Shown here piece by piece: positions 7,634 through 47,081 of a DNA stretch of 53,614 nucleotides. The stretch comes from a virus. The translations under genes were made by a program, and so were the position numbers. The stretch is from positions 1-53,614 of the IMG/VR virus record IMGVR_UViG_3300034120_000351. One strand, written 5' to 3'. Every line of letters begins with the position of its first letter. Within the stretch, counting starts at the first letter, position 1. The notes under the pieces are model-generated. The model saw nothing but the letters and a program-made list of their open reading frames with translations, was not told the origin of the DNA and searched no databases.

Positions 7634-7740
7634 ACAACTGGCCATTCCCACCCCCAACCGGTCCCGTGCCTTGGACTGCTAAGCAGATTCGCGAATATGC
7701 ACGTAAGCGCATCGAGCAGACCGAAAAAGCCCCTTTTTAA
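7630..7740 (+). CDS. small hypothetical protein (36 aa)
   Basis: A 36-residue product starting MNNWPFPPPTGPVPW, with an amphipathic helix behind. It is linked to the preceding gene by an ATGA overlap. Short proteins with the P-P-TGPVPW-A-QI pattern recur in phages. Function unknown. Confidence 0.5.
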   Translation: MNNWPFPPPTGPVPWTAKQIREYARKRIEQTEKAPF

Positions 7741-7765
7741 TCAGAATTTTCCTTGGAGATTTGAA

Positions 7766-8194
7766 ATGAATACAGTAAACTTTTCCAGCATGACGACCCC
7801 ACAATTAGTGTCGTTTTATAACCGCCACAGTACAACACCGGTCAAGCGCTTTAGCGACCGCAAAACCGCCGAAAGGCGTTGTGCTGAGGTCTTTGAGAGC
7901 TTGCTCTCCCCTGTACCTACTAGCAAAGTGATTAAACAAGTGGTTGACACCTCTACCCGCCCAGTCATGAAGGACTCGCTCAAGCTCGACCGCACGATCA
8001 TCTGCGTGAACACCGGCGCTACGTGGAAGAATGCGTATCAGATGTGGCGCGACAATCCTGACTGGATGACTAGCGCTCAGCAAGACCGCTTGACCGCCCA
8101 GCTCTACGCCGCCGCTAAGGTCGGTGAGCAGAAGATTATTGAAATCAATGACCGCAGCTTCATGTTGGTTAACATTAAAGGAGTAAAGAAATGA
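7766..8194 (+). CDS. conserved phage hypothetical protein (142 aa)
   Basis: The ATG at 7766 (MNTVNFSSMTTPQLVSFYN) has TTGGAGAT upstream and is preferred to the longer open frame. The N-terminal 45 residues carry a widespread phage motif, T-x-LV-FYN-----PVKRFSDRKTAERR. The middle and C-terminus are unassigned. A DNA-binding role is a guess based on the basic N-terminal domain. Confidence 0.68.
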   Translation: MNTVNFSSMTTPQLVSFYNRHSTTPVKRFSDRKTAERRCAEVFESLLSPVPTSKVIKQVVDTSTRPVMKDSLKLDRTIICVNTGATWKNAYQMWRDNPDWMTSAQQDRLTAQLYAAAKVGEQKIIEINDRSFMLVNIKGVKK

Positions 8195-8415
8195 CTGAGA
8201 ACGCACCTGTGTTGGCGGGCATAAAGTGGTTCACGAGCGGTAAGGGTCTCGTGGGCGTAGCAGCGGTGCGCATTGAGACCGGCGACATCAAGTTCTACAT
8301 CGCCCCCGCTGATGGTTTCAACGAGGTGATCGACTCTAATTTGATCATGTCACACGGAGCGCCTTTCCCCGAGGACGCCGGTTACGCATTATTTGTAAAG
8401 GAAGAGTTAGCATGA
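8191..8415 (+). CDS. small hypothetical protein (74 aa)
   Basis: A 74-residue protein, probably all-beta (IKWFTSGKGLVGVAAVRI, then DIKFYIAPADG). It overlaps the preceding gene (ATGA) and the PLP enzyme gene that follows, so it is co-translated with the modification block. Function unknown. Confidence 0.62.
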   Translation: MTENAPVLAGIKWFTSGKGLVGVAAVRIETGDIKFYIAPADGFNEVIDSNLIMSHGAPFPEDAGYALFVKEELA

Positions 8416-9368
8416 ACACCGTATTTCCCGACCTGTCGCTTGACCGCAACGTCGTCAAGTGGGAGCAGCACCTTGGCACTCAGACGCCGTGGGAGAATCA
8501 CAAGGGCTTGTGGTTCAAGCGTGAGGATTACTTTGCGCCGCTCGGCTATAGCGGTCCCAACGGCTCTAAGATGCGCCAGCTGATTTGGTACGTCAACAAG
8601 TTCCGTCAAGGTAAGACCCACATCGTGACCGGCGCTAGCATTCAGTCCCCTCAGCTGAGCATGAGCGCTATCGTGGGTGCGCACTACGGCTTGCGCGCTC
8701 GGCAGATCGTCTATAGCAAACCTGAGACTGTGTTGCGTCATGAGAACCCTCGCATTGCCTACGGCTTTGATGCTGAGTTTGAGTACGCTTCTGGTCCGTA
8801 CAACCCTATCCTGCAGCGCAAGGTTGTTGACCTGACGCAACCTACCTCGCTCGTCGTAGAGTACGGCATTACCGTGCCACATGACCGCTACCCTGAGGAC
8901 GACGTGCGTAAGTTTCACGAGGTCGGCGCTCATCAGACAGCTAACATCCCGCCCGAAGTCAAGCGCCTCATCGCCCCTGCTGGGTCGTGTAACTCGCTGA
9001 CGAGCATTATGCTCGGCTTGAGCCGTGACTCGCACAATATTGAGGAACTGTTCACGATCGGCATCGGTCCCGACAAGCGCGGCTGGATGCGTGCTCGGTT
9101 AGCCTACATCGGCATTGACATTGACAAGCTGCCGTTCAAGTGGAAGCACTTTAGCCTGCACGACAGCGGCTACAGCAAGTACAGCGATCACTTCACCGGT
9201 GAGAATTTTGACGGCATCCGCTTTCACCCGACCTACGAGGCTAAGATGTGGCGCTGGTTGACACACAACAACCAGTTAGATTATGATGACCATACCGCCT
9301 TCTGGATTGTGGGCAGCGCCCCTGACACGAAGATTGTTGAACCCTTTTACACTAGGAAGTTTTCATGA
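8412..9368 (+). CDS. PLP-dependent fold-type II enzyme, probable DNA hypermodification (318 aa)
   Basis: The protein resembles the tryptophan-synthase-beta / ACC-deaminase fold. KRED at 36-39 and NGSKMRQL at 50-57 match the region with the PLP-binding lysine (K53). GASIQSPQ at 74-81 corresponds to the substrate-binding GS-QSPN loop, and APAGSCNS at 188-195 to the glycine-rich phosphate-cup loop. Known thymidine-hypermodification systems use PLP enzymes to trim an amino acid already attached to the base. This gene opens the block with the transferase-like, kinase and hydroxymethylase genes. The exact reaction (decarboxylation, elimination or other) cannot be read from the sequence. Confidence 0.72.
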   Translation: MNTVFPDLSLDRNVVKWEQHLGTQTPWENHKGLWFKREDYFAPLGYSGPNGSKMRQLIWYVNKFRQGKTHIVTGASIQSPQLSMSAIVGAHYGLRARQIVYSKPETVLRHENPRIAYGFDAEFEYASGPYNPILQRKVVDLTQPTSLVVEYGITVPHDRYPEDDVRKFHEVGAHQTANIPPEVKRLIAPAGSCNSLTSIMLGLSRDSHNIEELFTIGIGPDKRGWMRARLAYIGIDIDKLPFKWKHFSLHDSGYSKYSDHFTGENFDGIRFHPTYEAKMWRWLTHNNQLDYDDHTAFWIVGSAPDTKIVEPFYTRKFS

Positions 9369-9553
9369 GACAACAACAAGCATTCCCAAGTGAAGAATAT
9401 TACGGCATGAATTTGCGTGATTACTTCGCGGCTCAGGCTATGCAATCATTTACAGGAGACGTTGGCTGGAAATCTGACCAGAAATGGTTTGAAGAAATTG
9501 CAGAAGGCGCTTACAAGGTTGCAGACGCAATGATGAAAGCGAGGGAAGCATGA
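9365..9553 (+). CDS. small conserved phage protein (62 aa)
   Basis: A 62-residue protein with the common phage motif GMNLRDYFAAQAMQ, then a helix ending AYKVADAMMKAREA. Such proteins are widespread in phages with no known activity. It overlaps both neighbours by 4 bases. Confidence 0.68.
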   Translation: MRQQQAFPSEEYYGMNLRDYFAAQAMQSFTGDVGWKSDQKWFEEIAEGAYKVADAMMKAREA

Positions 9554-10551
9554 CCGATTATCGTCTACCTGAGAACCGCGCCGCGTATTTCTCGGCGCTG
9601 TACAAGATGAACCTTGAGCATGGTGTTATGCCAGGACTGGTTTATCTGTACATGCCTGAGTTAGCCCGCCGCTGCGAATGGGACGCTGAGCAGAAGCTCT
9701 GGTTCGCCTTTCTGAACGGCTTGACGCAGAACCCGATCACCTCGTTACGCTTGCTCAGCCGACTGCCGAGCGTGCCTCCTGCGGGCGCTCAGTTGACGCA
9801 GTTCAATGATTGGTTCAATGCTGAGTGGGATACGCTTCAGTTTGACACCGACCGCCGCTACCAGAAGCGCGACACCCTTGAAGCCATCAAGACTTACGCT
9901 AAGTTGGTCGAGGAGTTCGGCTCTCAGGAGGCAATGCTGACCGGTAAGCCTTACTCCGAGCTTTGGGATCTTGTGCGTAACCGCTACTACAGCTTCGGTC
10001 GTCTGTCATCGTTCAGCTACCTCGAGTATGTCTACCTGAACGGCTTCGGCGCTGACTGCGATGATCTGATGTTTAGCGACAAGTCGGGCAGCAAGTCACA
10101 CCGCAACGGAATGCTGTTTTTAATCGGCAGAGACGAGCTGGTGTGGGACAAGCGCCTGCCCAACGGACAAGACGGCAGCTACCCTAAGTTCAACCTGATG
10201 TGCGGCTTCCTCGCTGCGGAGGCTGACAAGTACATTGATAGCTTCAACGCCGCCAATCCTGGCATCGCTCACGCGGGTCGCTTCACTATGGAGTCAAACC
10301 TTTGCACGTTCAAGAATCATTTCTTCGGTCGTCGCTACCCAGGAGTTTACGCGGACATGGCGTGGGAGCGGATTGAGTGGGCTGAGGCGCGTGACCAAGG
10401 CGAGTACACCGAGGTGTTCAAGGACATGCGCTCACAGCTCTTGCCTGACTGGTTACGCGCTGAGTGTGAGACCGAGCCGTTGACCGTAAAACAGAAAGCC
10501 GCCGTGTTCCCTGAGACCGGTTCACCCTATAGAGCGGAGTACTTTTTATGA
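9550..10551 (+). CDS. amino acid:DNA transferase / aGPT-pyrophosphorylase-like protein (333 aa)
   Basis: This mostly helical protein resembles the alpha-glutamyl/putrescinyl thymine pyrophosphorylase-like family (aGPT-PPlase, also called amino acid:DNA transferase), which is related to helical DNA glycosylases. Members displace pyrophosphate from phosphorylated 5-hydroxymethyl-dU in DNA with an amino acid. Supporting segments are LWFAFLNGLTQNP near 57, NRYYSFGRLSSFSYLEY near 150 and the SGSKSHRNGM region near 185. It is flanked by a P-loop kinase, an HMUDK-type protein and a thymidylate-synthase homologue, which is the classic arrangement. Its exact clade and amino-acid substrate are unknown. 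Confidence 0.7.
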   Translation: MTDYRLPENRAAYFSALYKMNLEHGVMPGLVYLYMPELARRCEWDAEQKLWFAFLNGLTQNPITSLRLLSRLPSVPPAGAQLTQFNDWFNAEWDTLQFDTDRRYQKRDTLEAIKTYAKLVEEFGSQEAMLTGKPYSELWDLVRNRYYSFGRLSSFSYLEYVYLNGFGADCDDLMFSDKSGSKSHRNGMLFLIGRDELVWDKRLPNGQDGSYPKFNLMCGFLAAEADKYIDSFNAANPGIAHAGRFTMESNLCTFKNHFFGRRYPGVYADMAWERIEWAEARDQGEYTEVFKDMRSQLLPDWLRAECETEPLTVKQKAAVFPETGSPYRAEYFL

Positions 10552-11126
10552 AGCATATCATCCTGCGAATTGCCGGCACGTTCGGCTCGGGCAAGACCAC
10601 CGCGATGCGCGGCTTCTTCAACTACCCGCACACAGTTTTGATGAGCGGTAAAAAGATCGCCGGTTATCAAGTCGACGCCAGCTCTGCCGGAATCAGCGAG
10701 CCGATCTTTGTGGTTGGCAAGTATGACAACACGTGCGGCGGCACAGACGCCATCAAGACACAGGCTGAGATTGCCGAGAAGATCCTGAAAGCACACCCCC
10801 ATGGCCATGTGTTATACGAGGGCGCTTTAGTGTCTGCGAGCGGACTCGCCGGTCAGGTGACGCAAGCCATTCACCCTACCGGCTGCGATGTGTACGCCTT
10901 TCTTGACACTCCGCAAGACCTCTGCGTTGAGCGGGTTAAGGGGCGTCGCCTCGCCGCCGGCAACGACAAAGAGTTTGACCCGAAGAACCTGATTGACAAG
11001 TTTGAGTCGGTTGTCAACTGCTACAAAAACCTGCGCAAAGAAGGCACGTACGACGTGCGTCTGATTGACCACACAGACCCGCACCCCGCGCTAGTAGAAA
11101 TCATAAAGGAGTATGAAAATGCGTGA
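10548..11126 (+). CDS. P-loop kinase, probable 5-hydroxymethyl-dU DNA kinase (192 aa)
   Basis: A small nucleotide-kinase fold. Walker A is GTFGSGKTT at 10-18, a hydrophobic VLYEGALV strand serves as a Walker B-like element, and RVKGRRLAAG is a lid-like Arg-rich segment. In hypermodifying phages, kinases of this kind pyrophosphorylate the 5-hydroxymethyl group of the base in DNA, activating it for substitution. Its place between the transferase-like and HMUDK-type genes argues for that role over a general nucleotide kinase. It overlaps the upstream gene by 4 bases. Confidence 0.72.
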   Translation: MKHIILRIAGTFGSGKTTAMRGFFNYPHTVLMSGKKIAGYQVDASSAGISEPIFVVGKYDNTCGGTDAIKTQAEIAEKILKAHPHGHVLYEGALVSASGLAGQVTQAIHPTGCDVYAFLDTPQDLCVERVKGRRLAAGNDKEFDPKNLIDKFESVVNCYKNLRKEGTYDVRLIDHTDPHPALVEIIKEYENA

Positions 11127-12039
11127 CAATTGCCCTTACCCTATGCCGACGCCGGAGACAGTTTGCTCGATGGCGGGTCTGCTTTACTTCATCTGGGAGC
11201 GGGAGGCTATCCGCATCGCTCGTGAGAACGGTCACAGCGCTCCGTGGACTAAAGACCCTGTACTCGCTAAGTACAAGTTCACCAACATCCACCGCTGCGA
11301 TGATCGCGTTTCGGTTTGGGTGATTGATCGGTTGATTGAGCCAGCGACCGCTCGAGGCGATGAGCACTTGTGGTTCACGCTGTTGATCGCCCGCCTGATC
11401 AACTGGCCGCCCACGCTACAGGCGCTGCTTGACAAGGGGGTCATCCCCTGCGCTCCTGAAAACTTTGATGCTGACTTGTTTGAGCACACGCTTGAGCGTA
11501 TCAAGAAAGACGGCAACAAGGTTTACTCCGGCGCGTACATGCTCTACCCGACTAAGATGGAGCCAGGAGGCAACAAGTCTAAGGCGGTGGCAAAGTACAT
11601 CATCGGCAGCGCGGTTGAGAACGCTGACAATATTAGCGCGGCGCTGTGGAACGATGGCGGGATGATGTCTATTGAGCGGTTCGTAGCTGAACTGAGCAAG
11701 TGCTTCGGCATCAGCACCTTTATTGCCGGACAGGTCGCCGCTGACTTGACGTACACCGGCATGGACGTTGAAGACTTGTTCACTTACGCGCCTATCGGTC
11801 CTGGTAGCTCGCGTGGGCTAAACTATTTGCTCGGCAAGCAGCCGTTCGCCACGTGGAAGCAGAAAGAATTCAATGCCGAGCTGAGCAACATCTTCAGCGA
11901 GATCGTTGATAAATTAGAAATCGTAGACATGACGCTGCATGATGTGCAGAACTGCATGTGCGAGTTCAGCAAGTACTGCCGCGCCGTACTCGGCGAGGGT
12001 AAACCTAAAACAACCTACCAACCAGAAACGGAGTTCTAA
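11119..12039 (+). CDS. HMUDK-type helical DNA base hypermodification protein (306 aa)
   Basis: Two near-adjacent ATGs exist at 11113 and 11119. The second is chosen because AAAGGAG lies 7 bases before it, whereas it almost touches the first. The N-terminal half carries the family pattern LLYFIWEREAIRI, then APWTKDPVLAKYKFTNIHR near 43-61, then LIARLINWP. This resembles the helical domain found with 5-hydroxymethyl-dU DNA kinases and annotated as a DNA base hypermodification protein. It is glycosylase-like and probably acts on modified bases in DNA, perhaps as a second pyrophosphorylase/transferase. The exact step is inferred. Confidence 0.7.
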   Translation: MRDNCPYPMPTPETVCSMAGLLYFIWEREAIRIARENGHSAPWTKDPVLAKYKFTNIHRCDDRVSVWVIDRLIEPATARGDEHLWFTLLIARLINWPPTLQALLDKGVIPCAPENFDADLFEHTLERIKKDGNKVYSGAYMLYPTKMEPGGNKSKAVAKYIIGSAVENADNISAALWNDGGMMSIERFVAELSKCFGISTFIAGQVAADLTYTGMDVEDLFTYAPIGPGSSRGLNYLLGKQPFATWKQKEFNAELSNIFSEIVDKLEIVDMTLHDVQNCMCEFSKYCRAVLGEGKPKTTYQPETEF

Positions 12040-12040
12040 A

Positions 12041-13078
12041 ATGGAGTTAGTCGTACGTAACGTCAATCAGGCTTTCAGTGAGATATTCTGGAAGCTCAAA
12101 GTGCTCAACCTTCAACCTGAGCAGACCCGCAATGGTCCCGCTATCGTGTACCCTGAGATGGTGACCACGGTCTACAAGTGCCCGTCTGAGCGCGTGCTGT
12201 TTCACAAGGGTCGTGATGCTAACCCGATCTTTCACCTCATGGAGTCGATCTGGATGCTGGCAGGGCGTAATGACGTTGCGTTCCTACAGCAGTTCAACAA
12301 GCGCATGGTCGAGTTCAGCGACGACGGCAAGACATTTAACGCCGCCTATGGTCACCGCTGGCGCAAGCACTTCGGTCATGACCAGCTTGACGAGGTCATT
12401 AGAACCCTGCGCCGCGACCCTAACAGCCGTCAGGCGGTTGTTCAGATCTGGGACGACGCTGATTTGAACAAGAAGACCAAGGACAAGGCGTGCAACATGC
12501 AGGTCATCTTTGACACTCGCGGCGGTCGTCTGAACATGACGGTGATCAACCGGTCTAACGATATCTGGTGGGGTGCGTACGGCGCTAACGCTGTGCATTT
12601 CAGTTTCCTGCAGGAGTTTGTAGCCGCTGCGATAGCGCACAGAATCGGCGTGTACCGTCAGGTGAGTAATAATTTCCACTTATACACAGAACTTTATAAC
12701 GCGAACAAATACCTCGTGACCCCGCCGGACGCTAACGACTATGACCATTACTCTAACGGCTCAGTGCGCCCCCTCCCGATCATGCTGAACGGCGAGTACA
12801 AACTGTTCCTAGCGGAGTGTGAGATGTTCTGCCACGACCCGTACAATGAGCGCATTCATTATGCTAACCCTTTCTTTGAGCACATCGCACGCCCCATGGC
12901 TATGATCAGTCGCGTACGCAAGATTCACGCAGGTGACGGTCGTAGCTATGCCGCTAAGATCCGCGCCGAGGACTGGCGTCGCGCAGCGTTTGATTGGATT
13001 GACCGCCGTGACCAAGCACGCAAAATCAAAGAGGAAGATGACGAGATAAATGAGCTGCGGAAGGCTGAGAAAAAATAA
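12041..13078 (+). CDS. thymidylate synthase-fold protein, probable dUMP hydroxymethylase (345 aa)
   Basis: The pyrimidine C5-methylase/hydroxymethylase fold is clear. AYGHRWR lies at 102-108 and RQAVVQIWDDAD at 130-141. The catalytic cysteine is Cys151 in KACNMQVIF, and NRSNDIWWGAYGANAVHFS at 170-188 follows. Asn183 matches the residue that reads uracil; the cytosine-specific T4 enzyme has Asp there. A plain thymidylate synthase would have PCH after the catalytic site and a FN motif, which are replaced here (ACN, GANAVHFS). With the kinase and transferase-like genes upstream, hydroxymethylation of dUMP is the best reading. A basic, charged tail of about 40 residues ends the protein. Confidence 0.75.
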   Translation: MELVVRNVNQAFSEIFWKLKVLNLQPEQTRNGPAIVYPEMVTTVYKCPSERVLFHKGRDANPIFHLMESIWMLAGRNDVAFLQQFNKRMVEFSDDGKTFNAAYGHRWRKHFGHDQLDEVIRTLRRDPNSRQAVVQIWDDADLNKKTKDKACNMQVIFDTRGGRLNMTVINRSNDIWWGAYGANAVHFSFLQEFVAAAIAHRIGVYRQVSNNFHLYTELYNANKYLVTPPDANDYDHYSNGSVRPLPIMLNGEYKLFLAECEMFCHDPYNERIHYANPFFEHIARPMAMISRVRKIHAGDGRSYAAKIRAEDWRRAAFDWIDRRDQARKIKEEDDEINELRKAEKK

Positions 13079-13079
13079 T

Positions 13080-13109
13080 TTGCGTGCTGTGAGAAATGTG
13101 AGCTATAAT
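13080..13109 (+). promoter_or_regulatory. candidate promoter before the HD hydrolase gene
   Basis: TTGCGT (13080-13085) and TATAAT (13104-13109) are 18 bases apart. The next start codon is about 33 bases downstream. This would give the HD/polymerase/recombination genes their own transcript inside the rightward block. Confidence 0.5.
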
Positions 13110-13118
13110 TGCTCACAT
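13096..13118. promoter_or_regulatory. operator-like palindrome over the -10 box
   Basis: ATGTGAGC and GCTCACAT form perfect 8-base arms around the 7-base centre TATAATT, which is the -10 box itself. A dimeric regulator bound here would block the promoter. A hairpin function is less likely because the -10 region is not transcribed from this promoter. Confidence 0.55.
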
Positions 13119-13124
13119 AACTGC

Positions 13125-13137
13125 TAACTGGAGAACT
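13125..13137 (+). promoter_or_regulatory. repeated RBS leader TAACTGGAGAACT
   Basis: Fifth plus-strand copy of the leader, 7 kb from the early cluster, placed before the GTG start at 13142. Confidence 0.6.
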
Positions 13138-13141
13138 TTTT

Positions 13142-13630
13142 GTGAAACATACCCTCGATTTTATTCTGGCTGGAAGCGAAGTGAAGCGCTATCACACAGT
13201 CACCACGCTCGTGTCTGAGACCGTCGGTCATCATTCACACGGCGTTGCTATGCTGTGCTTGATGTTTGACCCGATGGCGAGCCGTCAACTGCTAATGGCT
13301 GCGCTGTTCCATGATTTGGCTGAACACCAAACCGGCGACATCCCCTCCCCTGCTAAGCGTGAGTTCGGCATCGGCGGCAAAGTTGACGAATTAGAGTTGC
13401 GCCTTATGAGCGCTGCCGGAATCGTCACACCGCACCTCTCACCTGAAGACAAGAGAACTCTCAAGCTCGCCGACGTAGCACAGGGTGCGCTGTTTTGCGC
13501 TCGGGAGATCTCACTCGGCAACAAACGCATGCGCCGCGTATTTGACCGCTACATCAGCTACGCGGAAGAGCTGATTCTGGTCGGTCGCGAGCGCGAAATT
13601 TTCAACATGATCAAGGAATACGCAGCATGA
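13142..13630 (+). CDS. HD-domain 5'-deoxyribonucleotidase-like hydrolase (162 aa)
   Basis: Resembles the YfbR family of HD phosphohydrolases, which strip phosphate from deoxynucleoside monophosphates. Visible metal ligands are the H in VGHHSHGVA, the FHDLAEHQTGDIPSP block and a late D in KLADVAQ. It starts with GTG behind the repeated leader. Next to a probable dUMP hydroxymethylase it could remove dTMP or otherwise shape the nucleotide pool so that the modified base is incorporated. That pathway role is inference. Confidence 0.78.
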   Translation: MKHTLDFILAGSEVKRYHTVTTLVSETVGHHSHGVAMLCLMFDPMASRQLLMAALFHDLAEHQTGDIPSPAKREFGIGGKVDELELRLMSAAGIVTPHLSPEDKRTLKLADVAQGALFCAREISLGNKRMRRVFDRYISYAEELILVGREREIFNMIKEYAA

Positions 13631-13899
13631 GCGCGGCAAATCAAAAACAGATCGGTGGTAACCACTACAAGCACGGCGGCGAGGAACACTGGGACCGCGT
13701 CAATCGCTTGCGCCTGAATTACTTTCAAGCGGCGGCTACAAAGTACATTGAGCGTTGCTACCTGAAGGGTAACACTGTTCAAGACCTGCAGAAAGCCGTT
13801 CACTTCCTTGAGAAGCTGATTGAGATCGAGCAGCGTAAGGCTGATGCGGCTTGTGGTGACGGTAGCGAGCCTACCAGCGGCTATGTCAATCAAGACTGA
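13627..13899 (+). CDS. DUF3310 family protein (90 aa)
   Basis: Shows the DUF3310 pattern: an early QIGGNHY motif, then a helix with NYFQAAATKYIERC and a following DLQKAVHFLEKLI helix. The family is common in phages next to nucleotide metabolism or replication genes; its activity is not known. It overlaps the HD gene by 4 bases. Confidence 0.8.
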   Translation: MSAANQKQIGGNHYKHGGEEHWDRVNRLRLNYFQAAATKYIERCYLKGNTVQDLQKAVHFLEKLIEIEQRKADAACGDGSEPTSGYVNQD

Positions 13900-15742
13900 C
13901 ATGGGTACTTGGGTGTTTGATACTGAAACTCTGCCTAACCGGACTCTGTTCTGCGCAAAGAACATTGAGACCGGCGAGTGGTTTGACTTGTGGCGTCATT
14001 CTGACGACGCCCCTGCTCGCCTCACTCGGTTTGTGCAGCAGTCAGACAGCACGTTCATCGGCTTCAACAGCAAGTCGTTTGACAACGCGGTTGTGGCGGC
14101 GTTCTGCCTCGGTAGGACTGAGATTGAGATCAAGCGGATTGCTGATGACATCATCACGAACCGCCTGTCGCCTTGGAACGCGATGCGTAAGCACAACCTG
14201 CGTGACATCATCATTGATGACATTGACTTGATTGAGGTCGCTCCCTCGTTTGTAGGTCTGAAAGCCTACGGCGCTCGCATGCATATGCCTAAGTTGCAGG
14301 ACATGCCGATCGCTCACGACGAGATGATCGCCCCTGATCAAGAGCCGATGCTACTTGAGTATTGCCACAATGACGTTGACACAACTGCTGAGCTGTTGAA
14401 TCAACTCGAAGGCGAGCTTTTGCTGCGCGTTGAGATGAGCCGCCGGTACGGAGCTGACATGCGTAGCAAGTCTGACTCACAAATGGCGGAACAGGCGTAC
14501 ATCACCAGCATGGGTCTCAAACGTCAAGAGAATGAGATCCCTAAGACGGTCAGATATACGCCTCCGGCATTCCTGAAGTTTATGGATGCCGAGCTACAGG
14601 GTCTGCTTGATCGTGTCTCTGAGCACGTGTTCAATATGAACCCTGCCACCGGACACGTCCAGCTTCCAGACTTTCTCGGGCAGCGGACGATTAAATTTGG
14701 CACCGGCGAGTACCAGCTCGGCGTGGGCGGCATTCACAGCGTGCATGATAAACAGGTGTGCCACATCGCCGGTGATGATCACATGTGCGACCTCGACGCG
14801 GCTTCGTTCTACCCGAGTATCATTCTTGAGTGCGGGTTTGTGCCCGCCGCGCTCGGCAAGCGCTTCGTTGAGGAGTACCGCAAGATTTACGAGCGCCGCC
14901 TCGAGGCAAAGCGCAACGGCGACAAGATCACTGACGCGACGCTGAAGATTTCGCTGAACGGCACGTTCGGCAAGCTCGCCAGCCGTTACTCGGTGTTGTA
15001 CTCGCCGGACTTGATGTTGGCGGTGACGCTGACTGGGCAGTTCACCCTGCTCATGTTGATTGAGTGGCTTGAGCGGGCAGGGGCTTTGACCTTGTCAGCT
15101 AATACCGACGGCATCGCGATCAAGTTCACAAAGGAACAGAAGGAGCTAGTTGAGAAGGTTGTCAATAAGTTTAGTGAGGTGTCCGGTTTCGTGTTTGAGT
15201 ACACGCCGTATCGCGCCCTCGCTATGAAGGACGTAAACAATTACATTGCGGTCAAGCCTGACCGGAAGCTGAAAGTCAAGGGCATCTATGCGCCGCTCTC
15301 TCTTAAGAAAAACCCAACGGCTCAGGTATCGTCAGATGCTGTCGGCGCGTGGTTGGCAAGCGGTACTCCGTTCGAAGAGACGATTAAGTCTGCTCCGTTT
15401 ACGCACTTCATTAGCGCAAGGAATGTCACTGGCGGTGGCCAGCAAGCTGGGGTTTACCTTGGCAAAGTCGTACGGTGGTATCAATCAACGGACACTGGCG
15501 GCGAGCCTATCAAGTATGCTACGAATGGCAACAAAGTCCCTAAGACCGAAGGCGCTAAGGCGTGCATGACCGTGCTTGACAAGGTCGCTCACCCTGCTGA
15601 TCTCGACTATGAATGGTATAACAAAGAGGCGATAAAAATCGCCATAGCGGTTGGCTGCTCGCAGTACCTCACCCCTGAGCAACTCGCTTTAGTGGCACCA
15701 CCACCTAAGAAAACTAGGAAAGTTAAAAATGGAACACGGTAA
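13883..15742 (+). CDS. family B DNA polymerase with 3'-5' exonuclease (about 619 aa)
   Basis: The replicative polymerase. The exonuclease motifs are VFDTETLPN (Exo I), FIGFNSKSFDN (Exo II) and YCHNDVDTT (Exo III). The polymerase motifs are CDLDAASFYPSI (motif A), LKISLNGTFGKLASR (motif B) and SANTDGIAI (motif C). Motif C has Asn and Gly where DTDS is usual, but keeps the second Asp. No Shine-Dalgarno sequence stands out; the ATG at 13883 overlaps the preceding gene, and the ATG at 13901, one base after its stop, is the alternative. The frame is also open further upstream. Confidence 0.88.
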   Translation: MSIKTDMGTWVFDTETLPNRTLFCAKNIETGEWFDLWRHSDDAPARLTRFVQQSDSTFIGFNSKSFDNAVVAAFCLGRTEIEIKRIADDIITNRLSPWNAMRKHNLRDIIIDDIDLIEVAPSFVGLKAYGARMHMPKLQDMPIAHDEMIAPDQEPMLLEYCHNDVDTTAELLNQLEGELLLRVEMSRRYGADMRSKSDSQMAEQAYITSMGLKRQENEIPKTVRYTPPAFLKFMDAELQGLLDRVSEHVFNMNPATGHVQLPDFLGQRTIKFGTGEYQLGVGGIHSVHDKQVCHIAGDDHMCDLDAASFYPSIILECGFVPAALGKRFVEEYRKIYERRLEAKRNGDKITDATLKISLNGTFGKLASRYSVLYSPDLMLAVTLTGQFTLLMLIEWLERAGALTLSANTDGIAIKFTKEQKELVEKVVNKFSEVSGFVFEYTPYRALAMKDVNNYIAVKPDRKLKVKGIYAPLSLKKNPTAQVSSDAVGAWLASGTPFEETIKSAPFTHFISARNVTGGGQQAGVYLGKVVRWYQSTDTGGEPIKYATNGNKVPKTEGAKACMTVLDKVAHPADLDYEWYNKEAIKIAIAVGCSQYLTPEQLALVAPPPKKTRKVKNGTR

Positions 15743-46667: not shown

Positions 46668-47081
46668 TCAGATGAATGCTCGGATTGCCAGCGGGTCACC
46701 AGTTACCTGCCCGATGATATCCAAGTCGTTAAAAATAACAAACATCGCAGAGTCGTCAGTGCCAGGAATCTTTACTTCCCAGCGGTCACCGCCGTACTTA
46801 GCCACGCGAACGTATTCACCAGCTTTGCACCACTCGCCCTCTGGCCACGTCTTCATGTCATTGCGGTTCTTGAAAGCCAGCGGACCCAAGGCAATTACTT
46901 TGCCAATTTGAGTGTTCCACTTTTCTGTTTCATTGTTACCCGCGATGTCGAGAATGATGCCCCCAGCGGACTTTTTCTTCGGTGTGCGAATCTGAATCAG
47001 AACACGGCTTCCGAAAGGCTGAATGCCAGCATCTACTGCTGGAAAAGCCTCCGCCATTGCGTTCTCATAAGTCATTGTCAA
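46668..47081 (-). CDS. GroES-like co-chaperonin (137 aa)
   Basis: A beta-barrel chaperonin-10 pattern: PFGSRVLIQIRTPKKKSAGG matches the start of GroES and its mobile-loop region, IGKVIALGPLA the VVAVG strand, and KAGEYVRVAKYGGDRWEV the G--V---YGG strand. The protein is longer than GroES, as is T4 gp31. It probably works with the host GroEL to fold the capsid protein. It lies between portal and scaffold genes. Confidence 0.82.
   Translation of the reverse strand: MTMTYENAMAEAFPAVDAGIQPFGSRVLIQIRTPKKKSAGGIILDIAGNNETEKWNTQIGKVIALGPLAFKNRNDMKTWPEGEWCKAGEYVRVAKYGGDRWEVKIPGTDDSAMFVIFNDLDIIGQVTGDPLAIRAFI

Follow-up and report, generated by a model that had tools for sequence, protein, structure and literature searches.

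In Salmonella phage ViI (Vi01, NC_015296), a 157-kb myovirus, about 40% of thymidines are 5-(2-aminoethoxy)methyl-deoxyuridine (5-NeOmdU), and such DNA resists about 60% of commercial endonucleases (PMC11721090). Pseudomonas phage M6 (NC_007809) has an operon, gp51-gp59, for 5-(2-aminoethyl)-deoxyuridine (5-NedU), and Pseudomonas phage PaMx11 has a 5-phosphomethyl-deoxyuridine (5-PmdU) glycinyltransferase system, gp46-gp52. In M6, CN2 and PaMx11, genes for a P-loop kinase, a helical protein, a thymidylate synthase (TS) homologue, an HD nucleotidase and a DNA polymerase follow one another in that order. We found the same order in a candidate thymidine hypermodification cassette of IMGVR_UViG_3300034120_000351, a 53,614-base virus record from an uncultivated phage (the window, by which we mean the whole record). 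This cassette is a hybrid: its kinase, helical protein, predicted hydroxymethylase and gene order are M6/PaMx11-like, whereas its amino acid:DNA transferase (AADT) and its pyridoxal phosphate (PLP) enzyme are related to the ViI pair. The cassette comprises the following genes:

8412-9368, + strand: PLP enzyme of fold type II (D-cysteine desulfhydrase/ACC deaminase fold); phrog_3650, E = 7.3e-74.
9550-10551, + strand: AADT of the ViI type (PF18724, old name aGPT-PPlase2); E = 4.6e-18, 66.2 bits against a cut-off of 26.2.
10548-11126, + strand: predicted P-loop 5-hydroxymethyl-deoxyuridine (5-hmdU) DNA kinase, class A (GTFGSGKTT); PF18748, E = 5.7e-6.
11113-12039, + strand: HMUDK_hel helical protein (PF18723, old name aGPT-PPlase1); E = 1.8e-42, 146 bits against a cut-off of 25.
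12041-13078, + strand: TS homologue, predicted dUMP hydroxymethylase (5-hmdUMP synthase); phrog_5131, E = 8e-105.
13142-13630, + strand: YfbR-like HD 5'-deoxynucleotidase; PF12917, E = 3.2e-10.
13627-13899, + strand: DUF3310 protein; PF11753, E = 2.5e-4 (below cut-off), and phrog_236 ('nucleotide kinase'), E = 5.6e-14.
13883-15742, + strand: family-B DNA polymerase (PolB); phrog_1252, E = 2.4e-161.

A sequence-only reading of this DNA had described the first six of these genes as a block at 8412-13630. Pfam, PHROGs and NCBIfam agree that all six are present as named, and all are intact. The block extends beyond the proposed end: the DUF3310 and PolB genes continue the run directly 3' of the HD gene and bring it to eight genes. 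At the AADT/kinase, kinase/helical, helical/TS, HD/DUF3310 and DUF3310/PolB junctions, the start of each gene overlaps the preceding stop or lies one base away from it; several overlaps measure 4-14 bases, and ribosome-binding-like sequence is found at most junctions. These overlapping or one-base junctions suggest that the cassette genes form a single, translationally coupled operon. A longer TS open reading frame (ORF) starting at 11939 was rejected as mechanical (extension 11939-12040); ribosome-binding-like sequence precedes the start at 12041.

Scanning IMG/VR with the AADT alone identified 80 loci, and scanning with the PLP enzyme identified 60. All eight genes were present in 48 of the 80 AADT-found loci, 46 of which had identical gene order and strand; in L028 and L029 the PLP gene lies on the opposite strand, and many of the remaining loci are contig fragments. 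An independent search from the helical gene retrieved the same cassette. Given the co-linearity of 46 loci and the agreement of this second search, we conclude that the grouping is not due to chance. Fifty-two cassettes are distinct at 97%, and active-site motifs are nearly invariant in about 60-80 sequences per protein.

The front end of the cassette resembles those of M6 and PaMx11. The TS homologue shares 44% identity with M6 gp58 and with its CN2 counterpart. Its closest PDB relative is the CMP 5-hydroxymethylase MilA, and thymidylate synthases rank lower. The homologue conserves the catalytic Cys (KACN) and the base-selecting Asn (GAN), the residue that dUMP-specific enzymes of the TS family carry at this position. 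Consistent with the earlier suggestion, these features point to a dUMP hydroxymethylase. The helical protein, which had been described as HMUDK-type, a call borne out by its PF18723 match, is 30-34% identical to the proteins of CN2, M6 (gp55, 30%) and TM26, and weakly similar to that of ViI. It is the presumed partner of the P-loop kinase, and is encoded by a separate gene, as are M6 gp55, PaMx11 gp50 and the CN2 protein; the possibility that a frameshift had split a single kinase-helical gene was ruled out, since there are two genes in M6, CN2, PaMx11 and the window's relatives. The closest named relative of the kinase is PaMx11 gp49 (33% identity, E = 4e-19). The label 'terminase small subunit' that phrog_800 places on the kinase looks like a misannotation; M6 gp54 and PaMx11 gp49 carry it too.

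The remaining front-end genes have counterparts in M6. The HD gene occupies the position of M6 gp59, in keeping with its earlier assignment as a nucleotidase gene; its product has the conserved motifs HD and GDIPSP, and is proposed to deplete the canonical dNMP, dTMP. The DUF3310 protein matches M6 gp61 (E = 1.4e-12), its PHROG relatives are named nucleotide kinase (T7 gp1.7-like), and its gene is present in every complete cassette locus as well as in M6 and CN2, making it a candidate 5-hmdUMP kinase. PolB, which occupies the slot of the M6 family-A polymerase, is expected to incorporate 5-hmdUTP.

The back end, in contrast, is related to that of ViI. The AADT contains the ViI-type motifs DTDRRY and GSKSHRNG, and its near-invariant motifs are DTDRRYQK, GSKSHRNG and FKNHFFGRRYPGVY. 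It matches ViI Vi01_199 (orf00247) with E = 9.5e-32, and is 37% identical to the Montesquieu protein, 36% to that of Mycobacterium phage Zemanar and 30% to that of ViI. Pairwise BLAST detected no meaningful similarity to the M6 AADT. Maximum-likelihood analysis placed the window AADT with those of ViI, Zemanar and Montesquieu, across a 100/100 branch from those of M6, CN2, PaMx11, TM26 and phiW-14. Sequence and profile searches of the PDB with the AADT returned nothing real. The best PDB match to an AlphaFold2 model of the protein (pLDDT 92) was 8z2m/8z2n, that is PaMx11 gp46, the 5-PmdU glycinyltransferase (PUGT), to which the window AADT has no detectable sequence similarity (Foldseek probability 1.00, TM 0.55, E only 0.06); 8-oxoguanine glycosylases were the next matches. 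The profile match and the fold match both fit the earlier description of this protein as aGPT-PPlase/amino acid:DNA transferase-like, and we predict that it would swap the phosphate of 5-PmdU for an amino acid.

The PLP enzyme, likewise recognised as such in the sequence-only reading, matches ViI Vi01_182 (orf00226; E = 3.4e-56). It is 31-34% identical over its full length to the ViI and Vibrio 207E48.1 enzymes, and its similarity to M6 gp52 is barely detectable. An AlphaFold2 model (pLDDT 88) has the D-cysteine desulfhydrase structure 4d92 as its top PDB match (E = 1.3e-11). The near-invariant motifs are GPNGSKMRQL and PAGSCNS; K53 within the former, invariant in 34 sequences, is the expected PLP lysine. 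In ViI, gp247 is reportedly the amino acid transferase and gp226 the PLP decarboxylase. We take orf00247 and orf00226 to be these two proteins, and by analogy we propose that the PLP enzyme of the window is an aminoacyl-dT decarboxylase.

Genes that distinguish the back ends of M6 and PaMx11 were not found. Neither the M6 radical S-adenosylmethionine (SAM) protein gp53 nor PF04055 had a match in the window or in 19 relatives, whereas the CN2 control was found at E = 9.9e-273; the search used the M6 protein because PF04055 alone is a weak detector that misses CN2. Counterparts of the flavin adenine dinucleotide (FAD) enzyme gp47 and the acetyltransferase gp48 of PaMx11 had no match in the window, whether the query was the PaMx11 protein or that of a relative, L223.

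Profile, synteny, phylogeny and fold evidence together support a hypermodified-thymidine pathway via 5-hmdU, as had been suggested from the sequence. We consider it likely that the phage has in this cassette a full pathway for hypermodifying thymidine with amino-acid-derived groups, ending in 5-NeOmdU, and we infer the following route. The TS homologue would convert dUMP to 5-hmdUMP, and the HD nucleotidase would clear away canonical dTMP; 5-hmdUMP would be raised to 5-hmdUTP by the DUF3310 protein or by host kinases, and the phage's PolB would insert this triphosphate opposite A. The P-loop kinase and its helical partner would then phosphorylate some of the 5-hmdU residues in the DNA, depending on sequence, to 5-PmdU. 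The ViI-type AADT would exchange the phosphate for an amino acid, most likely serine via its oxygen, and the PLP enzyme would decarboxylate the adduct to 5-NeOmdU, a bulky, positively charged base that could be expected to hinder host restriction endonucleases. With a ViI-type AADT and PLP enzyme and no radical-SAM gene, the ViI base is the most economical prediction.

Several points weigh against this pathway or its predicted product. The P-loop protein falls just under the Pfam cut-off (PF18748, 26.4 bits against 27), although its earlier assignment as a kinase is backed by similarity to PaMx11 gp49 and M6 gp54 and by gene position. A search of the window returned no dCMP deaminase or ribonucleotide reductase of the kind that M6 has. 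Fold type II also includes PLP enzymes for eliminations and deaminations. In addition, the AADT is nearer to those of Zemanar and Montesquieu than to that of ViI, and we know of no determined base for either phage, so serine is not secured. These affinities, together with a PLP enzyme that lacks the segment between the 'LPF' and 'SLH' motifs present in the ViI and Vibrio 207E48.1 enzymes, would allow for another amino acid. The same cassette might then yield a different product, a base not described so far, with the AADT using another amino acid (N- or O-linked glycine, alanine, threonine or a diamino acid) or with a PLP enzyme that does not decarboxylate. We regard this as unlikely, though worth serious attention, since the AADT and PLP enzyme co-occur as in ViI, and the PLP enzyme shares the motifs GSK, PAGSCNS, YGIT and HP-YE-K with the ViI enzyme.

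An alpha-putrescinyl or glutamyl-type modification, as in phiW-14 or SP10, is very improbable: phiW-14 does have relatives of PF18724 and PF18723, but its AADT lies with the M6 type on the far side of the 100/100 branch, and pairwise comparison with the window AADT detects no similarity. Slimmer still is the chance that only nucleotide-pool genes (the thymidylate synthase and the nucleotidase) are at work here beside decayed hypermodification genes, leaving DNA with plain T or 5-hmdU, since the six proteins are intact, their motifs are strongly conserved across the relatives, and the gene set stays together across wide divergence. The M6 base is the least credible product. The front end and gene order are those of M6, but the AADT and PLP enzyme are not of the M6 type, and we dismissed 5-NedU for the absence of the radical-SAM gene from the window and 19 relatives.

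Comparison of the relatives revealed repeated exchange of the kinase gene alone between cassettes that are otherwise 85-95% identical, which is a new observation of this analysis. The kinases belong to class A (GTFGSGKTT, as in the window) or class B (GCNGSGKTT), with identities of 57-99% within and 36-52% between classes, without overlap; in the kinase tree, the classes lie on two sides of one supported branch. When mapped onto a tree built from the remaining cassette genes, the kinase class switches eight times, and supported branches force at least five of these changes, giving a range of five to eight exchanges or more. For example, the window and the class-B locus L020 are 91% identical in the PLP enzyme, 85% in the AADT, 90% in the helical protein, 88% in the TS homologue, 98% in the HD nucleotidase and 93% in PolB, but only 49% in the kinase. 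DNA identity between the two falls from 75-95% to about 47-68% only at about 10,520-11,100 and recovers at once, whereas no drop is seen across the kinase against the class-A locus L022. Among close pairs of cassettes, the kinase is the outlier in 12 of 66, and every other gene in 0-3. An assembly artefact was ruled out, since many metagenomes yield distinct cassettes of both classes (19 of class B, 32 of class A), with no intermediates. The kinases of L088, L093 and L133 have neither a GTF nor a GCN P-loop, and are possibly further types.

According to published work, the 5-hmdU DNA kinase acts sequence-specifically and favours TG and TC sites (PMC7653180; PMC6449724). Given this specificity, kinase exchange may switch which thymines become modified, and so change the pattern of modified sites. 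We tentatively raise the idea, which we hold to be somewhat doubtful, that the kinase is a swappable specificity module, comparable to the specificity subunits of type I restriction systems, with whole back ends (PLP enzyme and ViI-type AADT against glycine AADT, FAD and GNAT proteins) also being exchanged, which would alter the chemistry, while the front end is kept. The analysis singles out the kinase as the sole cassette gene under repeated exchange, and the natural occurrence of both classes in nearly identical cassettes offers a clean test of protection-pattern switching, beyond the chemistry itself.

Back ends also differ in some other loci. L223 has a class-B kinase, helical protein, TS homologue, HD nucleotidase, DUF3310 protein and PolB as in the cassette family, but the sequence upstream (L223:3-1691) encodes the PaMx11 set: a fragment of an M6/PaMx11-type AADT, cut by the contig end, a GNAT acetyltransferase and an FAD oxidoreductase. 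In three loci from other phages (L082:894-5672, L083:1132-4774 and L084:5937-9579), an AADT of the window family is accompanied by different P-loop kinases. Pfam identified a Tet/JBP dioxygenase (PF12851) in L082 and L083, and L084 has a near-identical protein; no TS or helical gene was found nearby in any of the three. A dioxygenase without a TS gene suggests that these phages would oxidise T within DNA to obtain 5-hmdU. L082 also carries a second AADT, of the M6 type.

Two small genes or possible genes adjoin the genes described above:

7697-8194, + strand: small upstream gene; phrog_4730, E = 4.1e-9 over residues 33-69; cassette membership uncertain.
9407-9553, + strand: possible 48-aa ORF that fills the gap between the PLP and AADT genes and overlaps the AADT start.

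The N-terminal segment of the 7697-8194 product resembles M6 gp49 by eye only, phmmer finding no match between the two at E = 0.01; the M6 gp49 gene likewise sits just upstream of the M6 AADT gene. The 48-aa ORF was overlooked in the sequence-only reading. The gap that it fills is absent or different in most relatives, most of which lack this ORF or have another small one. In several loci (L079:7204-8001, L066-L071, L076, L082 and L083:2406-3206), the sequence between the PLP and AADT genes or just before the AADT gene encodes a conserved protein of some 250-265 aa. This protein has no Pfam match; one motif looks Rossmann-like by eye, and the protein is possibly an extra tailoring enzyme.

The structural module of the window is related to those of HTVC023P-type podoviruses and Caulobacter phage RW. 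The portal protein is 57.7% identical to that of RW and 32-37% identical to those of HTVC023P-type and Roseobacter phages. Some HTVC023P clades carry TS and aG/PT-PPlase1 genes (PMC9599517). The AADT and helical genes were not found in the isolates RW, HTVC023P and CRP-902, in DSL-LC04 or in the assembled genome MW202545; with these related genomes lacking the cassette, no cultured close carrier was found. A gene at 46668-47081, within the structural block, encodes a GroES-like co-chaperonin (phrog_3188, E = 9.6e-10), and the annotation of the relative MW202545 likewise includes a chaperonin-10 gene. With this cassette, predicted thymidine hypermodification from amino acids reaches a widespread lineage of uncultivated phages with HTVC023P-type-like structural genes.

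The sequence-only reading had taken the cassette for the set of phages such as ViI and M6. The evidence supports a 5-hmdU hypermodification set, but not one identical to either, since a ViI-type AADT and PLP enzyme are joined to an M6/PaMx11-type front end, without radical SAM. Combinatorial permutations of hypermodification genes have reportedly been described, and the present combination may be among them. Compared with the window, M6 has another type of AADT, a distant PLP enzyme (gp52), the radical-SAM protein gp53 and a family-A polymerase. PaMx11 provides the nearest named kinase, the AADT fold match and the same front-end order, but its back end consists of a glycine AADT, an FAD enzyme and a GNAT protein instead of a PLP enzyme and a ViI-type AADT. 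In Glutamicibacter phage Montesquieu (OV696619), genes for an AADT and a PLP enzyme (37% and 30% identical to those of the window) are adjacent, but in AADT-PLP order, with the TS and PF18723 genes several kb away and in a phage of an actinobacterial host. ViI has homologues of both back-end proteins, which share a side with those of the window in each of the two trees, and relatives of PF18723 and PF18748 as well, but its kinase and helical proteins are of a more distant type and its genes are scattered at 38, 87, 140 and 151 kb, whereas those of the window lie together in one apparent operon. Taken together, these comparisons indicate that the front and back halves of known pathways recombine.

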